Positions 321 to 5,485 of a stretch of DNA of 5,640 nt are shown piece by piece; the stretch's first letter is position 1; each line of letters opens with the position of its first letter. Source of the DNA: Clostridia bacterium. GTDB taxonomy: Bacteria > Bacillota_A > Clostridia > Christensenellales > Borkfalkiaceae. The stretch is taken from assembly GCA_017462425.1 (NCBI GenBank), contig JAFTRD010000074.1, positions 1-5,640 on the forward strand, written 5' to 3'. The translations under genes were made by a program, and so were the position numbers. The notes under the pieces are model-generated. The model was not told where the DNA came from and searched no databases. It was given only the letters and a program-made list of their open reading frames with translations.

Positions 321-1631
321 ATGAATTTAACCCCCAAACAGATAGTTTTTGAGCTGGATCGGCACATTATCGGTCAGAACGACGCAAAAAAAGCGGTGGC
401 AATCGCCCTGCGTAACCGTTACCGCCGCAGTCAGCTTTCGCCCGAGCTAATGGAGGAAATCACCCCGAAAAATATCATTATGAAAGGTCCTACGGGCGTG
501 GGTAAAACGGAAATTGCCAGACGTTTGGCAAAGCTCGTCAAAGCGCCTTTTATCAAGGTCGAGGCGACCAAGTATACCGAGGTGGGCTACGTCGGTAAGG
601 AAGTAGAGAGCATGGTGCGTGATTTGGTAGAGTGCGCCATTCGCCTGGTGAAAGAGGAGAAGATGCAGGAGGTTTCCCTAAAAGCGCACGCCATTGCCGA
701 GAAAAAGCTGTTAACGGCACTCTACGAGGCGAAAAAAGCCGATAAGGGCGAAACCGCCACCGAGGTATTCAAATCCAACCTTTCGGACGGGCTGAAAAAG
801 GGCTTATACGAGGACTTCGTCTTGGAAATGGACGTAGCCGAGGAAAATAAGACCATGGAGCTTATCCCCGGCGGCGCTGCAATTTCTCTTGGCAGCATCT
901 TCGGCGAAGCTCTCCCCAAACGCAAAAAAAAGAGAAAAATAACCGTCAAGGAAGCCAGAAAAATAATCGTAGCCGAGGAGAGCGACAAGCTCATCGACAA
1001 CGACGCCGTCACCGCCGAGGGCTTGCGCCGCGCGGAGAACGACGGTATCATCTTCATTGACGAAATTGATAAAATTGCCGGCAAGGGCAACCACAGCGGC
1101 GCAGACGTTTCCCGTGAGGGCGTACAGCGTGACATTCTGCCCATCGTCGAGGGCTGTACGGTCATGACCAAGCACGGCGCGGTAAAAACCGACTATATGC
1201 TGTTCATAGCGGCGGGCGCTTTCCACGTATCCAAGGTGGAAGATTTAATTCCCGAGCTTCAGGGTCGTTTCCCTATTAAAGTGGAATTAAAGAGCCTGAC
1301 CAAGGAGGATTTTATCTCCATTTTAACCCAAACCGAGCACTCCATTACCGACCAGTACAAGGTACTGTTGGCGGTGGACAATATCGATTTATCCTTTACG
1401 AAAGAGGCGATTGCAAAGATTGCCGAGGTCAGCGTAGAGATCAACGAAACCAGCGAGGATATCGGCGCAAGACGTCTGCATACGGTCATGGAAACGCTTT
1501 TAGAGGAGATATCGTTCAACGCCGGTGGGGGCGGATACCCGGTTATTCCCATTCAGATTGACGAAAAATACGTCGTCGACCACCTCTCGTCCATCACCCG
1601 TGACAGAGATATCAAGAAGTATATATTATAA
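321..1631 (+). CDS. hslU: HslU (ClpY) AAA+ ATPase unfoldase of HslUV protease
   Basis: HslU is the hexameric AAA+ ATPase that recognises, unfolds and threads substrates into HslV in the cytoplasm. From the ATG at 321 the protein has 436 residues, against 443 in E. coli, so it is full length. Motifs in order: Walker A GPTGVGKT (residues 56-63), pore loop GYVG (89-92), the intermediate I-domain from about 100 to 225 with a lysine-rich stretch RKKKRK (201-206), Walker B GIIFIDEID (242-250), the highly conserved DVSREGVQRDILPIVEG block (262-278), sensor 1 area LFIAAGAF (294-301), the likely arginine finger in ELQGRF (Arg316), and sensor 2 GARRLHTVME (382-391). The C-terminus ends in KKYIL; in this family the last residues insert into pockets on HslV to activate it, and the terminal Ile-Leu is kept. 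The gene starts 13 nt after hslV. No catalytic residue is missing. Bacillus calls the pair clpQ-clpY or codW-codX. Confidence 0.98.
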   Translation: MNLTPKQIVFELDRHIIGQNDAKKAVAIALRNRYRRSQLSPELMEEITPKNIIMKGPTGVGKTEIARRLAKLVKAPFIKVEATKYTEVGYVGKEVESMVRDLVECAIRLVKEEKMQEVSLKAHAIAEKKLLTALYEAKKADKGETATEVFKSNLSDGLKKGLYEDFVLEMDVAEENKTMELIPGGAAISLGSIFGEALPKRKKKRKITVKEARKIIVAEESDKLIDNDAVTAEGLRRAENDGIIFIDEIDKIAGKGNHSGADVSREGVQRDILPIVEGCTVMTKHGAVKTDYMLFIAAGAFHVSKVEDLIPELQGRFPIKVELKSLTKEDFISILTQTEHSITDQYKVLLAVDNIDLSFTKEAIAKIAEVSVEINETSEDIGARRLHTVMETLLEEISFNAGGGGYPVIPIQIDEKYVVDHLSSITRDRDIKKYIL

Positions 1632-1637
1632 CCCCCC

Positions 1638-1857
1638 AACGTGGGATTTTCAAGGGGATAATCCCCTTGAATAGGGTGTGGGACAACGTCCCACGGAATA
1701 AATAGCCGTCAAAAAAGCAAACGCAGTTTGCGCCAATCGCTAAAAGCGATAAAAATAGCGCAAGGCATAGCCTTGCTTATAAAAGGCTAAATAGCGTAGG
1801 GAACGCTGTTCCCTACAACCCTTGCGAAGGGCGTTACGCCCTCTCGACACCCAAGTT
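1638..1857. repeat. Hairpin-rich intergenic element, copy 1 (hslU-hisS gap)
   Basis: This element nearly fills the gap between hslU and hisS and is a run of seven perfect short hairpins. Most can be drawn with a three-base loop: 1651-1669 (CAAGGGGA arm, TAA loop), 1678-1694 (GTGGGAC arm, AAC loop), 1717-1731 (GCAAAC, GCA), 1736-1750 (ATCGCT, AAA), 1760-1776 (GCAAGGC, ATA), 1796-1816 (GTAGGGAAC, GCT) and 1828-1842 (AGGGCG, TTA). Its first 83 nt (1638-1720) match 3122-3204 in the hisS-trxA gap at 75 of 83 positions without gaps. Its right end ACCCAAGTT (1849-1857) matches ACCCGAGTT at 3335-3343. The ends are loosely inverted (AACGTGGGA at left, AACTTGGGT as the complement of the right). No protein is encoded. 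It is probably a dispersed non-coding or REP/MITE-like element, but its family is not recognised. Confidence 0.8.
1711..1731 (-). terminator. Possible weak minus-strand terminator within element copy 1
   Basis: Read on the minus strand, the 6-bp stem GCAAAC-TGC-GTTTGC is followed at once by six T (the A run at 1711-1716). This has the layout of an intrinsic terminator, but the stem is short and only half GC. The same layout recurs in the other two copies (3195-3215 and 5166-5187). No minus-strand gene in the window ends here, so the role is uncertain. Confidence 0.35.
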
Positions 1858-1862
1858 ATCAC

Positions 1863-1868
1863 AGGAGA
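1863..1868 (+). promoter_or_regulatory. Ribosome binding site of hisS
   Basis: AGGAGA lies 7 nt before the ATG at 1876. It decides the start: the longer in-frame TTG reading from 1822 would begin inside the hairpin element and would add 18 residues not typical of HisRS. Confidence 0.85.
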
Positions 1869-1875
1869 AAATTAT

Positions 1876-3123
1876 ATGATCAACATTCCCAAAGGCACGA
1901 AAGACGTATTGCCCGCCGACTCGTATAAATGGCAATACGTGGAAGATAAGGCGCGCAGCGTTGCCAAGGCGTACAACTTAAAAGAGATACGTACCCCTGT
2001 TTTTGAGTACACCGAGCTTTTCCTGCGTGGCGTTGGCGAAACCACCGACGTCGTTACGAAAGAGATGTATACCTTCAAGGATAAGGGCGACAGATCCATC
2101 ACGTTAAAACCCGAAGGCACGGCAGGGGTTGCCCGTTCATTCATTGAAAACGGCCTGGCAAGCACGCCCATGCCCTTAAAAATGTTTTATATTATTCCGG
2201 CGTTCCGTTACGAGCGTCCGCAGGCTGGCAGACTGCGTGAGTTCCACCAGTTCGGCGTGGAGGTGTACGGTTCGGCTACCCCCCAAACGGACGCAGAGGT
2301 CATTGCCGTAGCCAACGACCTCATCTCGTCTTTGGGATTAAAGGCAAAGCTGTTCATCAACTCTATCGGCTGTAAAGAATGCCGCAAAAAATTCAACGAT
2401 GCGCTCAAGGAATATCTGCGCCCGAATTTAAATAAAATGTGCCCCGACTGCCAGACGAGGTTCGATAAAAACCCCATGCGTATTCTGGATTGTAAAGTGC
2501 CCGAGTGTAAAGAGATCAACCAGAACGCTCCCACCATTTTGGAATATTTGTGCGACGATTGCAAGGCTCACTTCGACTCCGTGCAGAAATACTTACAGCT
2601 TTCGGGTATATCTTATGAAATTAATCCCAAAATCGTAAGAGGATTGGACTATTACACCCGTACGGTATTCGAGTTCGTCAGCGAAGAAATCGGCTCGCAG
2701 GGCACGGTGCTTGGCGGCGGCAGATACGACGGACTCATTGAGGAAATCGGCGGCTCGCACACGCCCGCCGTGGGGTTTGCGGCAGGATTGGAACGGCTTT
2801 TAATGCTCATGGAAAACACGGGCGCTTTCTTCCCCCAGGAGCCTGCCCCCGTGGTATACCTTGCCGGTATGGACGAGGCTTGCCGTGAAAAGTCGTTTGA
2901 AATTGCGGTGGCGCTACGCAGCGCCGGCATCGCCTGCGAGGTGGACCACATGAACCGTTCCATCAAGGCGCAGTTCAAGTATGCGGACAAGCTCAAAGCC
3001 AAGTACGTTGCGGTTATCGGCGGTAACGAGCTTTTAGAAGGCGTAATGAACGTGAAAAACATGTCCAATTCCACGCAGGAAAGCGTAGCGTTTGAAGCTG
3101 CCGTAGCGTATTTTTCTCGCTAA
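1876..3123 (+). CDS. hisS: Histidine-tRNA ligase (HisRS)
   Basis: HisRS is the class II synthetase that charges tRNA-His with histidine in the cytoplasm. The ATG at 1876 gives 415 residues (E. coli HisRS has 424) and begins MINIPKGTKDVLP, the usual family start. Motifs: motif 1 region around TPVFEYTELF (40-49), the KPEGT strand (78-82), motif 2 FRYERPQAGRLREFHQFGVE (110-129), the histidine-specific HisA block RGLDYYTRTVFEF (255-267) and HisB GGGRYDGL (280-287), and motif 3 VGFAAGLERLL (299-309). The anticodon-binding domain follows from about 325, ending in the VAVIGGNEL-type strand. The insertion domain (about 165-235) carries paired cysteines CKEC, CPDC, single Cys206 and Cys211, and CDDC, which suggests a metal site; this is inference, though such cysteine-rich insertions occur in clostridial HisRS. 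The gene sits alone between two copies of the hairpin element; I see no convincing promoter and no T-box leader. Confidence 0.97.
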   Translation: MINIPKGTKDVLPADSYKWQYVEDKARSVAKAYNLKEIRTPVFEYTELFLRGVGETTDVVTKEMYTFKDKGDRSITLKPEGTAGVARSFIENGLASTPMPLKMFYIIPAFRYERPQAGRLREFHQFGVEVYGSATPQTDAEVIAVANDLISSLGLKAKLFINSIGCKECRKKFNDALKEYLRPNLNKMCPDCQTRFDKNPMRILDCKVPECKEINQNAPTILEYLCDDCKAHFDSVQKYLQLSGISYEINPKIVRGLDYYTRTVFEFVSEEIGSQGTVLGGGRYDGLIEEIGGSHTPAVGFAAGLERLLMLMENTGAFFPQEPAPVVYLAGMDEACREKSFEIAVALRSAGIACEVDHMNRSIKAQFKYADKLKAKYVAVIGGNELLEGVMNVKNMSNSTQESVAFEAAVAYFSR

Positions 3124-3194
3124 CGTGGAATTTTCAAGGGTTTATACCCCTTGAATAGGGTGTGGGACAACGTTCCACGGGATAAATAGCCCTC

Positions 3195-3215
3195 AAAAAA
3201 GCAATCTTCGATTGC
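3195..3215 (-). terminator. Possible weak minus-strand terminator within element copy 2
   Basis: On the minus strand the perfect 6-bp stem GCAATC-GAA-GATTGC is followed by six T (A run at 3195-3200). It is the positional equivalent of 1711-1731, with the same U-tract but a different stem pair. Weak stem, no minus-strand gene upstream. Confidence 0.3.
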
Positions 3216-3223
3216 GTTATATA

Positions 3224-3262
3224 TTTATCGCTTTTAGCGATTGGCGCAAACTGCGTTTGCTT
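3224..3262. repeat. 39-nt block, exact inverted copy of 1715-1753
   Basis: The 39 bases here are the exact reverse complement of 1715-1753. The block holds two hairpins (ATCGCT stem and GCAAAC stem) and the unpaired bases between them. Because the connecting bases also match, this is a true inverted copy, not just two similar palindromes. Confidence 0.9.
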
Positions 3263-3377
3263 GCAGGCGGCTTAATAACGCAGAGGGCAGTCGCCCTCCG
3301 CACCTTCCACCAAAGGGGGAGCGCCCCTTTGGAAACCCGAGTTGATTATTTTCCGCATAAAAAATGCATACTAAAAC

Positions 3378-3383
3378 AGGAGG
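3378..3383 (+). promoter_or_regulatory. Ribosome binding site of trxA
   Basis: AGGAGG lies 11 nt before the ATG at 3395, a slightly long spacing filled with A and T. It places the start at 3395 and not at the in-frame ATG at 3212. Confidence 0.85.
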
Positions 3384-3394
3384 AAAAAAATAAA

Positions 3395-3718
3395 ATGAGT
3401 CAAAACGTAAAAGAAGTAAATACAACCGAATTTAACGAGCTGTTAAAGGGCGCTTTGCCCGTGGTTTGCGACTTTTTTGCAAACTGGTGCGGTCCCTGCC
3501 GTATGCTTGCGCCCGTTATGGACGAAGTGGCAGGGGAGCTAAAAGATAGTGCCGTATTCGTCAAGGTAAACGTGGACGAAAACGAAGATCTGGCGGTAAA
3601 ATACCGCATCGCCTCTATTCCTTGCGTTAAAATGTTCAAAAACGGCGTGGAGGTGGGTGAAAGAATAGGATTTGCGCCCAAACAGAGCATGAAAGCGTTC
3701 GTGGAGGGGAACTTATAA
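3395..3718 (+). CDS. trxA: Thioredoxin
   Basis: This is a small cytoplasmic dithiol-disulfide oxidoreductase that reduces protein disulfides and is itself reduced by thioredoxin reductase. It has 107 residues, the normal length for a single-domain thioredoxin. The active site WCGPC is at 31-35, followed by the usual RMLAP; the conserved buried Asp is residue 26 and the cis-proline is Pro76. Two features are unusual: Cys25 just before the buried Asp, and Cys77 directly after the cis-proline, where most thioredoxins have Thr. The aromatic residue two before Ala29 is Phe-Phe rather than Phe-Trp. Cys77 should lie close to the active-site disulfide, so redox behaviour or regulation may differ; this is inference. 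The upstream gap is an element copy with no clear promoter, and the downstream gap holds the glyA promoter, so trxA may be transcribed from further upstream. Confidence 0.95.
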   Translation: MSQNVKEVNTTEFNELLKGALPVVCDFFANWCGPCRMLAPVMDEVAGELKDSAVFVKVNVDENEDLAVKYRIASIPCVKMFKNGVEVGERIGFAPKQSMKAFVEGNL

Positions 3719-3728
3719 CCCCAAATGA

Positions 3729-3758
3729 TTGACTTTTAAAAACGTTGTATGATACAAT
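3729..3758 (+). promoter_or_regulatory. Sigma-A-type promoter of glyA, extended -10
   Basis: TTGACT (3729-3734) and TACAAT (3753-3758) are separated by 18 bp, each one base off consensus. A TG one base before the -10 (3750-3751) makes it an extended -10 promoter. Transcription should start near 3765, giving a leader of about 30 nt with no room for a riboswitch. Confidence 0.75.
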
Positions 3759-3780
3759 AAACGAAAGAATAAAATTACAC

Positions 3781-3784
3781 GAGG
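3781..3784 (+). promoter_or_regulatory. Ribosome binding site of glyA
   Basis: GAGG lies 9 nt before the ATG at 3794. The spacing favours this start over the second Met codon at 3803, which would leave 18 nt. Confidence 0.7.
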
Positions 3785-3793
3785 TAAATACAA

Positions 3794-5044
3794 ATGATAG
3801 ATATGACCACCGTTAAAAACGCCGATCCCGAATTATATGCGGCGATGAACGACGAGCTTACCCGTCAGAGAGGAAATTTGGAGCTGATTGCCAGCGAAAA
3901 TATCGTTTCCCCTGCGGTAATGGCGGCAATGGGCAGCCATTTGACCAATAAATACGCCGAGGGCTTGCCCGGTAAGCGTTATTACGGCGGTTGCGAATAC
4001 GTAGACGTCGTAGAAACCATTGCACAAAACCGTTTAAAGGAAATTTTCGGCTGCGACCACTGCAACGTGCAGCCCCACAGCGGCGCAAGCGCAAACTTTG
4101 CGGTGTTCTTTGCCGTATTACAGCCCGGCGATACGGTTATGGGTATGAACCTCGCCCACGGCGGTCACCTTTCCCACGGCTCTCCCGTCAACGTATCGGG
4201 TAAATATTTCAACATCGTGCCCTACGGCGTATCCCCCGAAACAGAGGTCATTGATTACGACGAAATGGAGCGTATTGCGCTCGAATGTAAGCCCAAAATG
4301 ATCGTTTCCGGCGCTTCCGCTTATCCTCGAACCATTGATTTTAAGCGTATCCGTGAAATTTGCGACAAGGTGGGCGCGTATATGATGGTAGACATTGCGC
4401 ACATTGCAGGTCTGGTTGCCGCAGGCGCGCATCCCTCCCCCGTACCCTACGCCGACTTCGTTACCACCACCACGCACAAGACGTTGAGAGGTCCTCGTGG
4501 CGGCGTTATCATGTGCAAGGAAGAGCACGCTAAAATTATCGACAAAGCGGTATTCCCCGGCACGCAGGGCGGTCCTTTGATGCACGTTATCGCAGCAAAG
4601 GCGGTAGCGTTCAAAGAGGCTTTAAGTCCCGAATTTAAAGAATATCAGCAGCAAATCGTCAAAAACGCAGCGGCAATGGCGGCGCAGTTCACCAAAAACG
4701 GCGTAAGACTGGTCAGCGGCGGTACGGACAACCATTTAATGCTCTTGGATTTAAGCGGCAAGGGCGTTACGGGTAAAGAGCTGGAAAAAATGCTCGACGC
4801 CGTACACATTACCGTCAACAAAAACGCCATTCCCTTCGACAAGGAAAAACCCATCGTTACCAGCGGTGTTAGAATCGGTACGCCTGCGGTTACGGCAAGA
4901 GGCATGAAAGAAGCGGATTGCGCGAAGGTTGCCGACCTCATCTCCCGTGTTATCAACGAAAGAGAGGCTTGCTTTGAAGAAGTAAGCCAAGAGGTTGCCG
5001 CTCTCTGCGAACAGTTCCCTCTGTACGCCAACGATATTTTATAA
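3794..5044 (+). CDS. glyA: Serine hydroxymethyltransferase (SHMT)
   Basis: SHMT is a PLP enzyme that interconverts serine and glycine while passing a one-carbon unit to tetrahydrofolate, the main source of one-carbon units for purine, thymidylate and methionine synthesis. The protein has 416 residues, against 417 in E. coli. Visible signatures: LELIASEN (29-36), the [20 protein letters not shown] block (52-71), [10 protein letters not shown] (95-104), Asp200 and His203 in VDIAHIAGL contacting PLP, and the Schiff-base lysine Lys229 in [14 protein letters not shown]. Downstream are [17 protein letters not shown] (254-270) and [14 protein letters not shown] (357-370), whose Arg360 should bind the substrate carboxylate. 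All key residues are present. It has its own promoter 5' and a strong intrinsic terminator 3', so it is probably a single-gene transcription unit. Confidence 0.98.
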
Positions 5045-5055
5045 TCATAAGCAAC

Positions 5056-5090
5056 AAAAACGCCCCGTCGGTTGACGGAGCGTTTTTTTT
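5056..5090 (+). terminator. Rho-independent terminator of glyA
   Basis: A stem of CGC plus CCGTC pairs with GACGG plus GCG around a GGTT loop, with one C-A mismatch. Five A precede the stem and eight T follow it (5083-5090). It starts 11 nt after the glyA stop codon. Confidence 0.93.
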
Positions 5091-5130
5091 AACGTAGTTT
5101 CCAAAGGTTTATGACCTTTGGTGGGGATTG

Positions 5131-5152
5131 AAAGGGGCAACGCCCCTTTTTT
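5131..5152 (+). terminator. Second plus-strand intrinsic terminator
   Basis: An 8-bp stem (AAAGGGGC and GCCCCTTT, AAC loop) leads directly into a run of T (5147-5152). It may back up the glyA terminator. It is also hairpin 2 of element copy 3; in copies 1 and 2 the equivalent stem has no T run. Confidence 0.6.
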
Positions 5153-5165
5153 CTTATAGCCTTTT

Positions 5166-5187
5166 GAAAAGCAAAACGCAGTTTTGC
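5166..5187 (-). terminator. Possible terminator of the xre gene
   Basis: On the minus strand the 7-bp stem GCAAAAC-TGC-GTTTTGC is followed by TTTTC. It lies about 22 nt past the xre stop codon and is in the right orientation to end that transcript. The stem is AT-rich and the T run short, so efficiency is doubtful. Confidence 0.45.
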
Positions 5188-5209
5188 GTCCTTTTACCGC
5201 CTTTGGCGG

Positions 5210-5422
5210 TTAATAACTATCGTCTTTTAACCCAAGAAGATAATCTGCCGAAATATCAAGTTCTTTGCATAAATTGCGCAGCATTTCTATTGACGGTTGG
5301 CTTCTTCCCTTTTCCCAAGAATAGATACTGTCATCCGTAGTCTTTATCGCTGCGGCAAGCTGTTTTTGCGTAAAACCTTTTTCTATACGAATTTCTTTTA
5401 ATCGAATTGCAAATATATCCAT
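5210..5422 (-). CDS. Small XRE-family HTH transcriptional regulator
   Basis: A 70-residue single-domain DNA-binding protein of the Cro/C1 (XRE, HTH_3) family. The five-helix fold reads clearly: MDIFAIRLKEIRIEKG (helix 1), FTQKQLAAAI (17-26, helix 2), the recognition helix area TTDDSIYSWEKGRSQPS (28-44), then IEMLRNLCKELDIS and the typical DYLLGL ending. There is no extra ligand or peptidase domain, so it probably acts as a dimeric repressor. It diverges from the small gene at 5506, and two identical palindromes between them are the likely operators, predicting autoregulation. No Shine-Dalgarno sequence precedes the ATG, and a -10-like sequence ends only a few bases upstream, so the mRNA may be leaderless. 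The gene is richer in AT than its housekeeping neighbours and looks acquired. Its target beyond the neighbouring gene is unknown. Confidence 0.93.
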   Translation of the reverse strand: MDIFAIRLKEIRIEKGFTQKQLAAAIKTTDDSIYSWEKGRSQPSIEMLRNLCKELDISADYLLGLKDDSY

Positions 5423-5426
5423 ATTT

Positions 5427-5434
5427 ATAATATA
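5427..5434 (-). promoter_or_regulatory. Likely -10 region of the xre promoter
   Basis: The minus strand reads TATATTAT here, giving TATATT (5434-5429) or TATTAT (5432-5427). No good -35 hexamer lies 16-18 bp upstream. Palindrome 1 directly abuts the -10, where bound repressor would block polymerase. Transcription would start at about 5420-5422, on the start codon itself. Confidence 0.5.
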
Positions 5435-5449
5435 CCGTAAAAATTACGG
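5435..5449. promoter_or_regulatory. XRE operator 1 (palindrome CCGTAAAAATTACGG)
   Basis: A 15-bp palindrome with 6-bp arms CCGTAA/TTACGG around AAA, identical to 5464-5478. It sits 12 bp before the xre start codon, against its -10 region. Size and form fit an XRE dimer site; binding by the adjacent regulator is inferred. Confidence 0.8.
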
Positions 5450-5456
5450 AAAAATC

Positions 5457-5485
5457 TTGACAACCGTAAAAATTACGGCTATAAT
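5457..5485 (+). promoter_or_regulatory. Consensus sigma-A promoter of the small cysteine-rich gene
   Basis: Perfect TTGACA (5457-5462) and perfect TATAAT (5480-5485) at the optimal 17-bp spacing. Operator 2 fills 15 of the 17 spacer bases. The start is expected near 5492, leaving a leader of about 14 nt with the ribosome binding site at its very 5' end. A promoter this strong implies tight repression by default. Confidence 0.9.
5464..5478. promoter_or_regulatory. XRE operator 2 (palindrome CCGTAAAAATTACGG)
   Basis: Identical to operator 1, 29 bp away centre to centre, just under three helical turns. It lies between the -35 and -10 hexamers of the plus-strand promoter, so a bound repressor would exclude RNA polymerase. 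Confidence 0.82.

Follow-up and report, generated by a model that had tools for sequence, protein, structure and literature searches.

Genomic context and the hairpin-bearing gaps

The window, that is, the whole analysed stretch of 5,640 nucleotides at the beginning of contig JAFTRD010000074.1 (Clostridia bacterium, assembly GCA_017462425.1), carries according to Pfam the end of hslV, followed by hslU, hisS, a thioredoxin gene, glyA and, on the reverse strand, a small helix-turn-helix (HTH) gene; the names hslV and hslU are given by homology and context. The gaps behind hslU, hisS and glyA contain ordered runs of short hairpins (Table 1), which had been pointed out in a first-pass annotation and were confirmed. 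The hairpin count revealed no such run in the thioredoxin–glyA gap. It is probable that the three gaps hold members of a lineage-restricted family of non-autonomous dispersed DNA elements resembling REPINs (doublets of repetitive extragenic palindromic (REP) sequences that form hairpins).

Perfect hairpins of at least 6 bp number eight (two of them overlapping), six and four in gaps 1–3, with shuffle means of 0.29, 0.50 and 0.50 and maxima over 300 shuffles of 2, 3 and 4, gap 3 alone being within the reach of an extreme shuffle. The coding sequence contains 1.2 perfect hairpins per kb. The fold z-scores were −7.55 (copy 1) and −4.34 (copy 2) as RNA and −5.0 as DNA. Copies 1 and 2 hold seven hairpins each, and not four as described at first. 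Copy 1 comprises two facing units around three central hairpins, and in its predicted RNA fold (−92.1 kcal/mol) three long-range stems are nested around the seven hairpins, an AGCC/GGCT stem enclosing H3–H5. Hairpin 2 of copy 2 (GTGGGAC/GTTCCAC), listed earlier as perfect, includes one G-T pair. The H3–H4 block of copy 1 (1715–1757) corresponds to the H4–H5 block of copy 2 (3220–3262) with 98% identity over 43 nt in inverted orientation, so that "matched by position" conceals an inversion.

Copy 3 consists of one unit and two further hairpins. The hairpins at gene ends could suggest clustered intrinsic terminators or attenuators. This explanation is very improbable, since seven hairpins stand in a row, divergent gaps are occupied as well, no U-tract was seen by eye after the hairpins (no terminator scan was run), and copy 3 lies beyond a separate terminator-like hairpin, recognised by eye, after glyA.

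Table 1. Genes, element copies and hairpins of the window.
Feature	Position	Strand	Basis	Remarks
hslU (AAA ATPase)	321–1631	+	Pfam; subtype name by homology and context	
Copy 1, hslU–hisS gap	1638–1857	+	R1 matches, fold z-score	Seven hairpins; AAC...GTT ends
Copy 1, H1	1649–1671	+		TTCAAGGGGA TAA TCCCCTTGAA; mirror flank GGGATT before it
Copy 1, H2	1678–1694	+		GTGGGAC AAC GTCCCAC
Copy 1, central hairpins	1717–1776	+		H3 1717–1731, H4 1736–1750, H5 1760–1776
Copy 1, H6 and H7	1796–1842	+		H6 1796–1816, H7 1828–1842; opposite unit, read on −
hisS (histidyl-tRNA synthetase)	1876–3123	+	Pfam	
Copy 2, hisS–thioredoxin gap	3122–3343	+		Full set of seven hairpins; left end overlaps hisS stop
Copy 2, H1 and H2	3133–3178	+		H1 3133–3155, H2 3162–3178 (one G-T pair)
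Copy 2, central hairpins	3201–3260	+		H3 3201–3215, H4 3227–3241, H5 3246–3260
Copy 2, H6 and H7	3283–3332	+		H6 3283–3298, H7 3310–3332, then AAACCC, the flank of the opposite unit
Thioredoxin gene	3395–3718	+	Pfam	
glyA (serine hydroxymethyltransferase)	3794–5044	+	Pfam	
Copy 3, behind glyA	5091–5220	+		Partial; abuts stop of HTH gene (−)
Copy 3, hairpins		+		H1 5101–5121, H2 5131–5149, central 5171–5187 and 5196–5210
Small HTH gene	5210–5422	−		

Covariance model and distribution of the family

The closest HslU relatives in a collection of named genomes are uncultured Clostridia metagenome-assembled genomes (MAGs) with at most 77% identity; Candidatus Coproplasma avicola, whose NCBI lineage is Eubacteriales incertae sedis, shows 71%. 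Four of 301 genomes (G034, G061, G048 and G016) are closer, with HisS 78–85% and HslU 89–94% identical to those of the window; together with G072 they make up the genus of G034 as grouped here. The order of the window and its relatives is presumably Christensenellales.

The covariance model, R1 (37 pairs in five helices), was built from 15 aligned copies of G048 and G016 and none of the window, two of the 15 coming from the hslU–hisS gaps of these genomes, orthologous to gap 1. Searched against the window with filters off (E-values rough), R1 matched copy 1 at 1640–1779 on the forward strand (89.5 bits, E = 7.5e-23) and at 1714–1855 on the reverse strand (62.8 bits), copy 2 at 3124–3263 (+, 52.6 bits, E = 2.4e-13) and 3198–3341 (−, 49.7 bits), and copy 3 at 5091–5229 (+, 44.5 bits, E = 2.9e-11). 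Full copies are matched twice, once per strand, because each contains two facing units. As a model made without the window copies recognises all three gaps, their assignment to one family is upheld.

R1 found 257 matches in 731 kb, none of them in the 19.7 kb G034 locus included there, and none at E<=0.01 in 815 kb from 50 loci of other named genomes. A DNA search of the genus with gap 1 gave 30, 13 and 10 matches at E<=0.1 in G048, G061 and G016, three of the five genomes, and none in G034 and G072; the regions around the matches proved to be long ordered arrays of perfect hairpins. The DNA search of the 12 genomes nearest by HslU, all outside the genus, yielded no match, nor did a BLAST search with gap 1 against phages and plasmids.

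At E<=1e-4, an R1 match was present in the family in 11 of 151 genomes, in the order in 25 of 248 and in the phylum in one of 299. Only 10–21 candidates per genome were scored, and with stricter filters; the copy numbers (20–21 each in G048, G016 and G061) are therefore minimum values, and a genome without a match may still carry the element. The pattern AAGGGAC N3-5 GTCCCTT was present in 20 of 301 family genomes, with up to 44 hairpins in G061 and at most one per genome for the reversed control. A pattern of flank plus hairpin 1 occurred in nine of 391 genomes of the class, nine times in G555, twice in G512 and once in each of seven others; some of these single matches look like chance. Thus, many further copies exist in the genus, family and order. 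No Rfam model reached its gathering score in the window, consistent with the earlier statement that no named family could be recognised, and no description of the hairpin-chain family was found in the portions consulted of the open-licence PMC literature (including PMC8794818, PMC3116915, PMC3733652, PMC4666352 and PMC12306157).

Architecture of the element

The basic piece is an oriented unit composed of a purine flank, hairpin 1, a G-run linker and hairpin 2. Two such units face each other around zero to three central hairpins, three in a full copy, and form a nested, cruciform-like palindrome of about 130–230 nt. Read inwards from either end, the outer part consists of AACnnGGGATT, hairpin 1 (for example, TTCAAGGGAC nnn GTCCCTTGAA), CGGGGT or CAAGGGT, and hairpin 2 of type AAGGGGC, GAAGGGC or CGGGAAC. 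A spacer and the central hairpins (GCGGAGC, ATCGCC and GCAAGGC types) follow, and beyond the centre the outer order is repeated in reverse. Eleven listed copies have all seven hairpins perfect and in the standard order. Variants include elements without a centre (much of G061), tandem runs of four or five (L164, L165) and single units such as window copy 3. Among neighbouring H1 units within 400 nt (n = 93), 52 are convergent, 18 face away from each other and 23 are in tandem. Hairpin density reaches 22–26 per kb in the arrays vs 0.55–0.61 outside them.

The stem words of G048 are few and their loops many, with 15 loops in 26 hairpins for AAGGGAC and 14 loops in 32 hairpins for GCAAGGC. In general, stems are kept by compensatory change, while the words, the loops and the number and orientation of modules vary. 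Several arrays contain a second repeat, TCGAAAACGATT nnn AATCGTTTTCGA ... GGGCGAA attcca TTCGCCC, within or beside hairpins of the H1/H7 type (approximately L149:212–340, L148:12735–12870, L159:11230–11340 and L142:15950–16056), which looks like a nested insertion. In G555 (L288, L289) a CTTCTTTTCT / AGAAAAGAAG hairpin recurs together with the related two-hairpin unit, 12 times in 40 kb, and is a lineage-specific addition.

Covariation and strand-specific units

The 15 seed copies of R1 had been chosen for perfect hairpins, and for this reason the pairs were counted on search matches, which nevertheless include the 15. Fitting to R1 biases both alignments towards it, in the comparison with slid controls too, and related and tandem copies are not independent. 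In the genus set, made up of the 150 top matches out of 257 (149 from the genus or the window), 97.5% of the cells were standard pairs, compared with a mean of 77.7% in shuffled and 42–52% in slid controls; 35 of 37 pairs varied on both sides, and double-changed cells numbered 1132 vs 324.6. The second set comprised 82 matches from nine genomes outside the genus (G214, G248, G175, G111, G155, G117, G895, G814 and G555), in regions selected for earlier matches. Here 94.5% were standard pairs, vs 71.0% shuffled and 35–49% slid, and all 37 pairs varied on both sides. Hairpins can also be seen without the model, for example in G214 and G155, in like order and with largely different words. Hence, the proposal that both partners of a stem change together is borne out by covariation far above both kinds of control, and not at chance level, in the genus and in nine other genomes.

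The units are strand-specific. Loops of hairpin 2, read from the outside inwards (n = 121), were GGC in 75 cases, AGC in 17, AGA in 13 and GCC in one; among H1 loops (n = 120) ATG (18), GTG (13) and GAT (12) lead. Of 331 oriented H1 and H2 hairpins, 273 were perfect and 58 had one mismatch. Mismatches of hairpin 1, read on the outward strand, were G-T in 26 cases (20 from G061), A-C in three and other in four; the strict totals retain five mis-parsed rows among 44 unique ones, in which the 3' arm of H1 is joined with the 5' arm of H2, and tandem copies are not independent. Hairpin 1 seems to tolerate wobbles on one strand, and hairpin 2 does not clearly do so. An early wobble count in flank-defined slots (GT/TG 55, AC/CA 18, mostly near the loops) was affected by parsing, and a count on the R1 alignment (57 to 7, helices 1 and 2) by the fitting.

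Folding as RNA, be it an mRNA stabiliser, a processing site or a small RNA, might also keep the stems, and the strong covariation in both sets, the fully nested fold of copy 1 with its low energy and z-score, and the position of copies 1 and 2 between co-directional genes all speak for it. However, one transcript does not account for the opposite strands of the two units of an element, and the loop specificity and the G-T excess of hairpin 1 follow the unit and not the element. Moreover, the arrays have no co-directional or 3' preference, 13 of 56 being in divergent gaps according to crude gene calls, their copy number, tandem runs and presence vary, and Rfam gave no match in the window. A structured RNA is therefore considered unlikely.

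The stems could, alternatively, be a result of mutation only, if template switching between the arms mends quasi-palindromes and leaves perfect stems without any function. Template switching is reported (PMC8794818) both to give rise to hairpins and to repair them, compensatory changes of several bases being involved, and the prevalence of perfect H1 and H2 hairpins, with few intermediates, agrees with this. Yet loop inversion, expected of switching between strands, is rare: reverse-complement loops were found in 8 of 368 (H1) and 16 of 348 (H2) pairs with the same stem, about twice the random expectation (1.2% and 2.0%). The corresponding figure for H4 is unusable because each hairpin was counted on both strands. 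The order of hairpins across lineages, the orientation of loops and the coupling of stems to an unpaired flank, described below, are also left unexplained, and this account appears somewhat less probable still than the RNA one, although switching on the same strand, without loop inversion, may help to keep the stems. The first-pass annotation offered stems maintained as such or a copying process that keeps palindromes perfect; the stems are indeed kept, and the choice between function and copying is only partly resolved. Taken together, the evidence points to a structure-selected DNA element whose folded single strand matters.

Mirror flank of hairpin 1

The purine flank in front of hairpin 1 varies with the stem, although it is unpaired. 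With fixed linker forms, GAG flanks were found on all nine units with GAG stems and AGG flanks on eight of nine with GGA stems, while 120 units with GGG stems had GGG in 86 cases and TAG in two. The relationship is that of a mirror, flank position −n (n from 3 to 6) being equal to arm position n+2. With no condition set on the flank, this rule held at 78 of 83 positions in 21 unique non-GGG units (0.94; shuffled 0.52, z 6.2), compared with 0.24–0.33 at other mirror offsets. For 89 unique units of the genus and the window the mirror value was 0.75 vs 0.59 (z 10.0), and the best direct repeat reached 0.66 vs 0.58 (z 4.7). Most of the signal comes from two non-GGG stem classes, which makes shared descent a rival; it is weakened by the variety of outer stems that these classes carry and by their presence in at least two species.

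In purine-motif intrastrand triplexes, as described in the part of PMC4666352 consulted, an antiparallel purine third strand forms the triads G.G, A.A and T.A. This triad rule was satisfied at 394 of 487 positions in the 89 units (0.81; shuffled 0.70, z 8.5), at 105 of 112 for non-GGG stems, and, in other lineages, at 61 of 63 (shuffled 0.93, z 2.6) in the 11 units whose outer stem has 5 nt and at 109 of 144 (shuffled 0.71, z 2.3) in the 30 whose outer stem has 3 nt, with the peak at one common offset in all three sets. To judge by its letters, the mirror flank would be what an antiparallel purine third strand needs. The triad runs are only 5–6 long and many second loops measure about 7 nt, which is borderline for intrastrand triplex formers (ITxF; stems of 6–15, loops of 1–6). 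Within the window, the right unit of copy 2 fits the mirror at six of six positions and the left unit of copy 1 at five in a row; the left unit of copy 2 and copy 3 fit with breaks, and the right unit of copy 1 does not fit.

Looser scores, taking the best of several mirror offsets, were raised for hairpin 2 (z 6.5), with 3'-side controls at z −1.0 and 0.2. This is weaker evidence than that for hairpin 1, since flank and stem are both different between the A and B types of unit. Hairpins H3–H5 scored 2.2, 0.3 and 2.3 in the genus and up to 4.6 (H3) in other lineages, where the scores are inflated by lineage mixing.

Gene context and turnover

Copies lie between genes, as far as tested. Crude open reading frame (ORF) calls placed 69 arrays in 26 co-directional, 17 convergent and 13 divergent gaps and at 13 locus edges, against a background of 216 co-directional, 93 convergent and 98 divergent gene pairs; the arrays have no bias in gene orientation, which speaks against a role at the 3' ends of genes. 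If ORFs are called more loosely, from 90 aa upwards, the hairpins of 48 out of 60 arrays fall under some ORF; 35 ORFs are 150 aa or longer and share at least 50 nt with one of the 69 arrays. Of the 29 of these scanned with Pfam, 23 had no match and six had one, always outside the array residues and in one case (DUF6652) below the cut-off. In one more of the 35, a 626-aa ORF that spans a whole array, the parts conserved in G016 and G061 flank the array and leave out the array itself, which thus occupies a gap. Among the 29 scanned ORFs and this one no array proved to be coding, and several overlaps are over-long starts.

Some elements adjoin stop codons to the base: copy 2 starts inside the hisS stop (3121–3124, T-AAC) and the end of copy 3 meets the stop codon of the HTH gene (5210–5212, gene on the reverse strand). 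Beside the start of the latter gene, two identical 16-nt palindromes ACCGTAAAAATTACGG (5434–5449 and 5463–5478) look like operators of a small HTH regulator. Arrays adjoin several tRNA synthetase genes, namely hisS (window), alaS (L175, L257) and cysS (L175), an expectation not having been computed. A collinear array-dense region of three genomes (L142, L166, L178) encodes DnaN- and RsmG-like proteins, recognised by eye, and arrays may be dense near the replication origin.

The occupation of orthologous gaps differs among close relatives. The hslU–hisS gap contains an element in the window, G048 and G016 and none in G034, where the gap is 74 nt, or in G061, which makes it filled in three of five genomes. 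In G061 this gap (L162:9130–9250) carries a different strong hairpin, CCGACCGCCGC aac GCGGCGGTCGG. The hisS–thioredoxin gap is occupied in the window only, among five genomes, as is the site after glyA among the four genomes whose sequence reaches far enough, the G048 contig ending too early. At sites collinear with G048 arrays an element was found in G061 or G016 in nine of 16 comparisons, a proportion inflated by the fetching of regions of all three genomes for their matches, and in G034 in none of three. The nearest relative of a unit (n = 149) was in its own genome in 119 cases, at another site of another genome in 28 and at the orthologous site in two. The mean likeness was 0.431 for orthologous sites, 0.434 for unrelated sites of other genomes and 0.51–0.53 within a genome, unit types being mixed. 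This pattern would result either from fresh insertions into the same sites or from homogenisation of the copies inside each genome.

Twelve contig ends of G048, G061 and G016 (L142, L148, L149, L151, L153, L155, L166, L167, L168, L172, L176 and L178) are situated within about 350 nt of an R1 match, a number for which no expectation was computed. The repeats may break MAG assemblies.

Comparison with known repeats and possible mode of spread

The four known groups considered here were compared on the basis of the parts of their descriptions that were consulted. Like REPINs and bacterial interspersed mosaic elements (BIMEs) (PMC3116915), the elements are extragenic and numerous, form inverted doublets with a spacer, have a predicted fold as single-stranded DNA with compensatory changes, and evolve as copies within genomes. 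Unlike REPINs (PMC3116915), they are built from a two-hairpin unit with a purine flank instead of one REP, enclose up to three further hairpins, exchange stems whole between lineages and possess neither the GTAG/CGTC tag nor a link to Y1 transposases or REP-associated tyrosine transposases (RAYTs). The intrastrand triplex motif repeats of E. coli and other bacteria (PMC4666352) have a purine third strand antiparallel to the purine arm, as would be predicted for the mirror flank here, and are similar in being intergenic without strand bias and sometimes in inverted pairs, and in having loops less conserved than stems; their sequence is almost invariant, whereas flank and stem co-vary here, and the 5–6 candidate triads are placed inside a chain of other hairpins. 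The CGTC-tagged REPs (PMC3733652) are likewise palindromic repeats said to have no dedicated transposase, but with a different tag, mainly different hosts and no hairpin chain in the description seen. Double-hairpin and palindromic elements of organelles are also dispersed, hairpin-forming and intergenic; their hosts are organellar and the likeness is one of description only.

A classic REP/BIME/REPIN system moved by a RAYT would account for the intergenic, multi-copy, lineage-patchy inverted pairs of palindromic units, and carrier G061 has five matches to PF01797 (Y1). However, PF01797 was detected in three of 14 carriers (one broken by a stop) vs eight of 14 genomes without detected elements; G048 has a fragment only and G016 none, absences here being read from MAGs whose completeness is not established. 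Elsewhere, G135 (with one weak R1 match), G072, G001 and G243 have one each and G034, G293 and G268 none. Since the presence of the transposase does not track the element, the Y1/RAYT link was dropped. Neither GTAG nor CGTC is typical of the palindrome foot, where the flank is mostly GGG, GAG or AGG, although the degenerate flank of copy 3 does read GTAG-TTT. Such a system appears highly improbable.

For the dispersed REPIN-like DNA element favoured here, mobility and a moving enzyme are inferred. Its spread, or its homogenisation, would pass through single-stranded DNA, where recognition would require every unit to fold on its own strand. Selection for further spreading would keep the stems, copies with failed pairing losing out, and the moving enzyme would probably be other than the usual RAYT/Y1 transposase. 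More speculatively, hairpin 1, and perhaps hairpin 2 as well, might take up the folded-back 5' flank as a third strand, the resulting purine-motif intrastrand triplex marking the unit. Ends of the type AAC..GGGATT/AATCCC..GTT are present, and would be candidate terminal inverted repeats if the element were a miniature inverted-repeat transposable element (MITE).

Several observations weigh against this reading. Excision, dated insertions and mobilising genes were not found, nor was a target duplication when the window was inspected by eye; between congeners, intergenic sequences have diverged too far for an empty site to be recognised. The six facing unit pairs with a distance of 250–4000 nt, taken from the fetched regions of three genomes, enclose no transposase, and the only pair with a large ORF encloses cysteinyl-tRNA synthetase, a host gene. 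The orthologous pair L157/L171 (84%) represents plain vertical descent, presence and absence could also be explained by deletion in some congeners, and the likeness within genomes by gene conversion. The covariation counts cover the helices of R1, and the long-range stems, namely an outer AAC.GGG, an inner GGG/CCC and the AGCC/GGCT stem, are outside them. Hairpin 2 has no clear wobble asymmetry (G-T 13, A-C 9 and other 3, some mis-parsed), and the unoriented mismatch count is G-U 8, A-C 6 and other 2. Direct repeats of flank and stem also exceed shuffles, less strongly (0.61, z 4.1, and 0.52, z 4.6); as an account of the H1 flank they were rejected as a poorer fit than the mirror rule.

Significance of the family

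The family is an unusually clear case of repeats whose architecture is better conserved than their sequence, and for that reason ordinary sequence searches fail to find it from one lineage to the next. It provides a natural setting in which to ask whether palindromes are kept perfect by selection on the folded strand or by template switching, how REPIN-like elements could spread if no RAYT is involved and, by way of the mirror flank, whether cells make use of intrastrand triplexes. The family may also explain assembly breaks in carrier genomes, and it is a source of false ORFs. A bolder and rather doubtful version of the proposal is that of a new kind of selfish DNA inherited by its shape, in which each unit, a tandem pair of intrastrand triplex hairpins, would be recognised on one strand by a single-strand-processing enzyme other than Y1/RAYT. 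If this is true, only pairing and mirror symmetry would be read, so that the letters could drift jointly while the architecture persists across an order of Clostridia.

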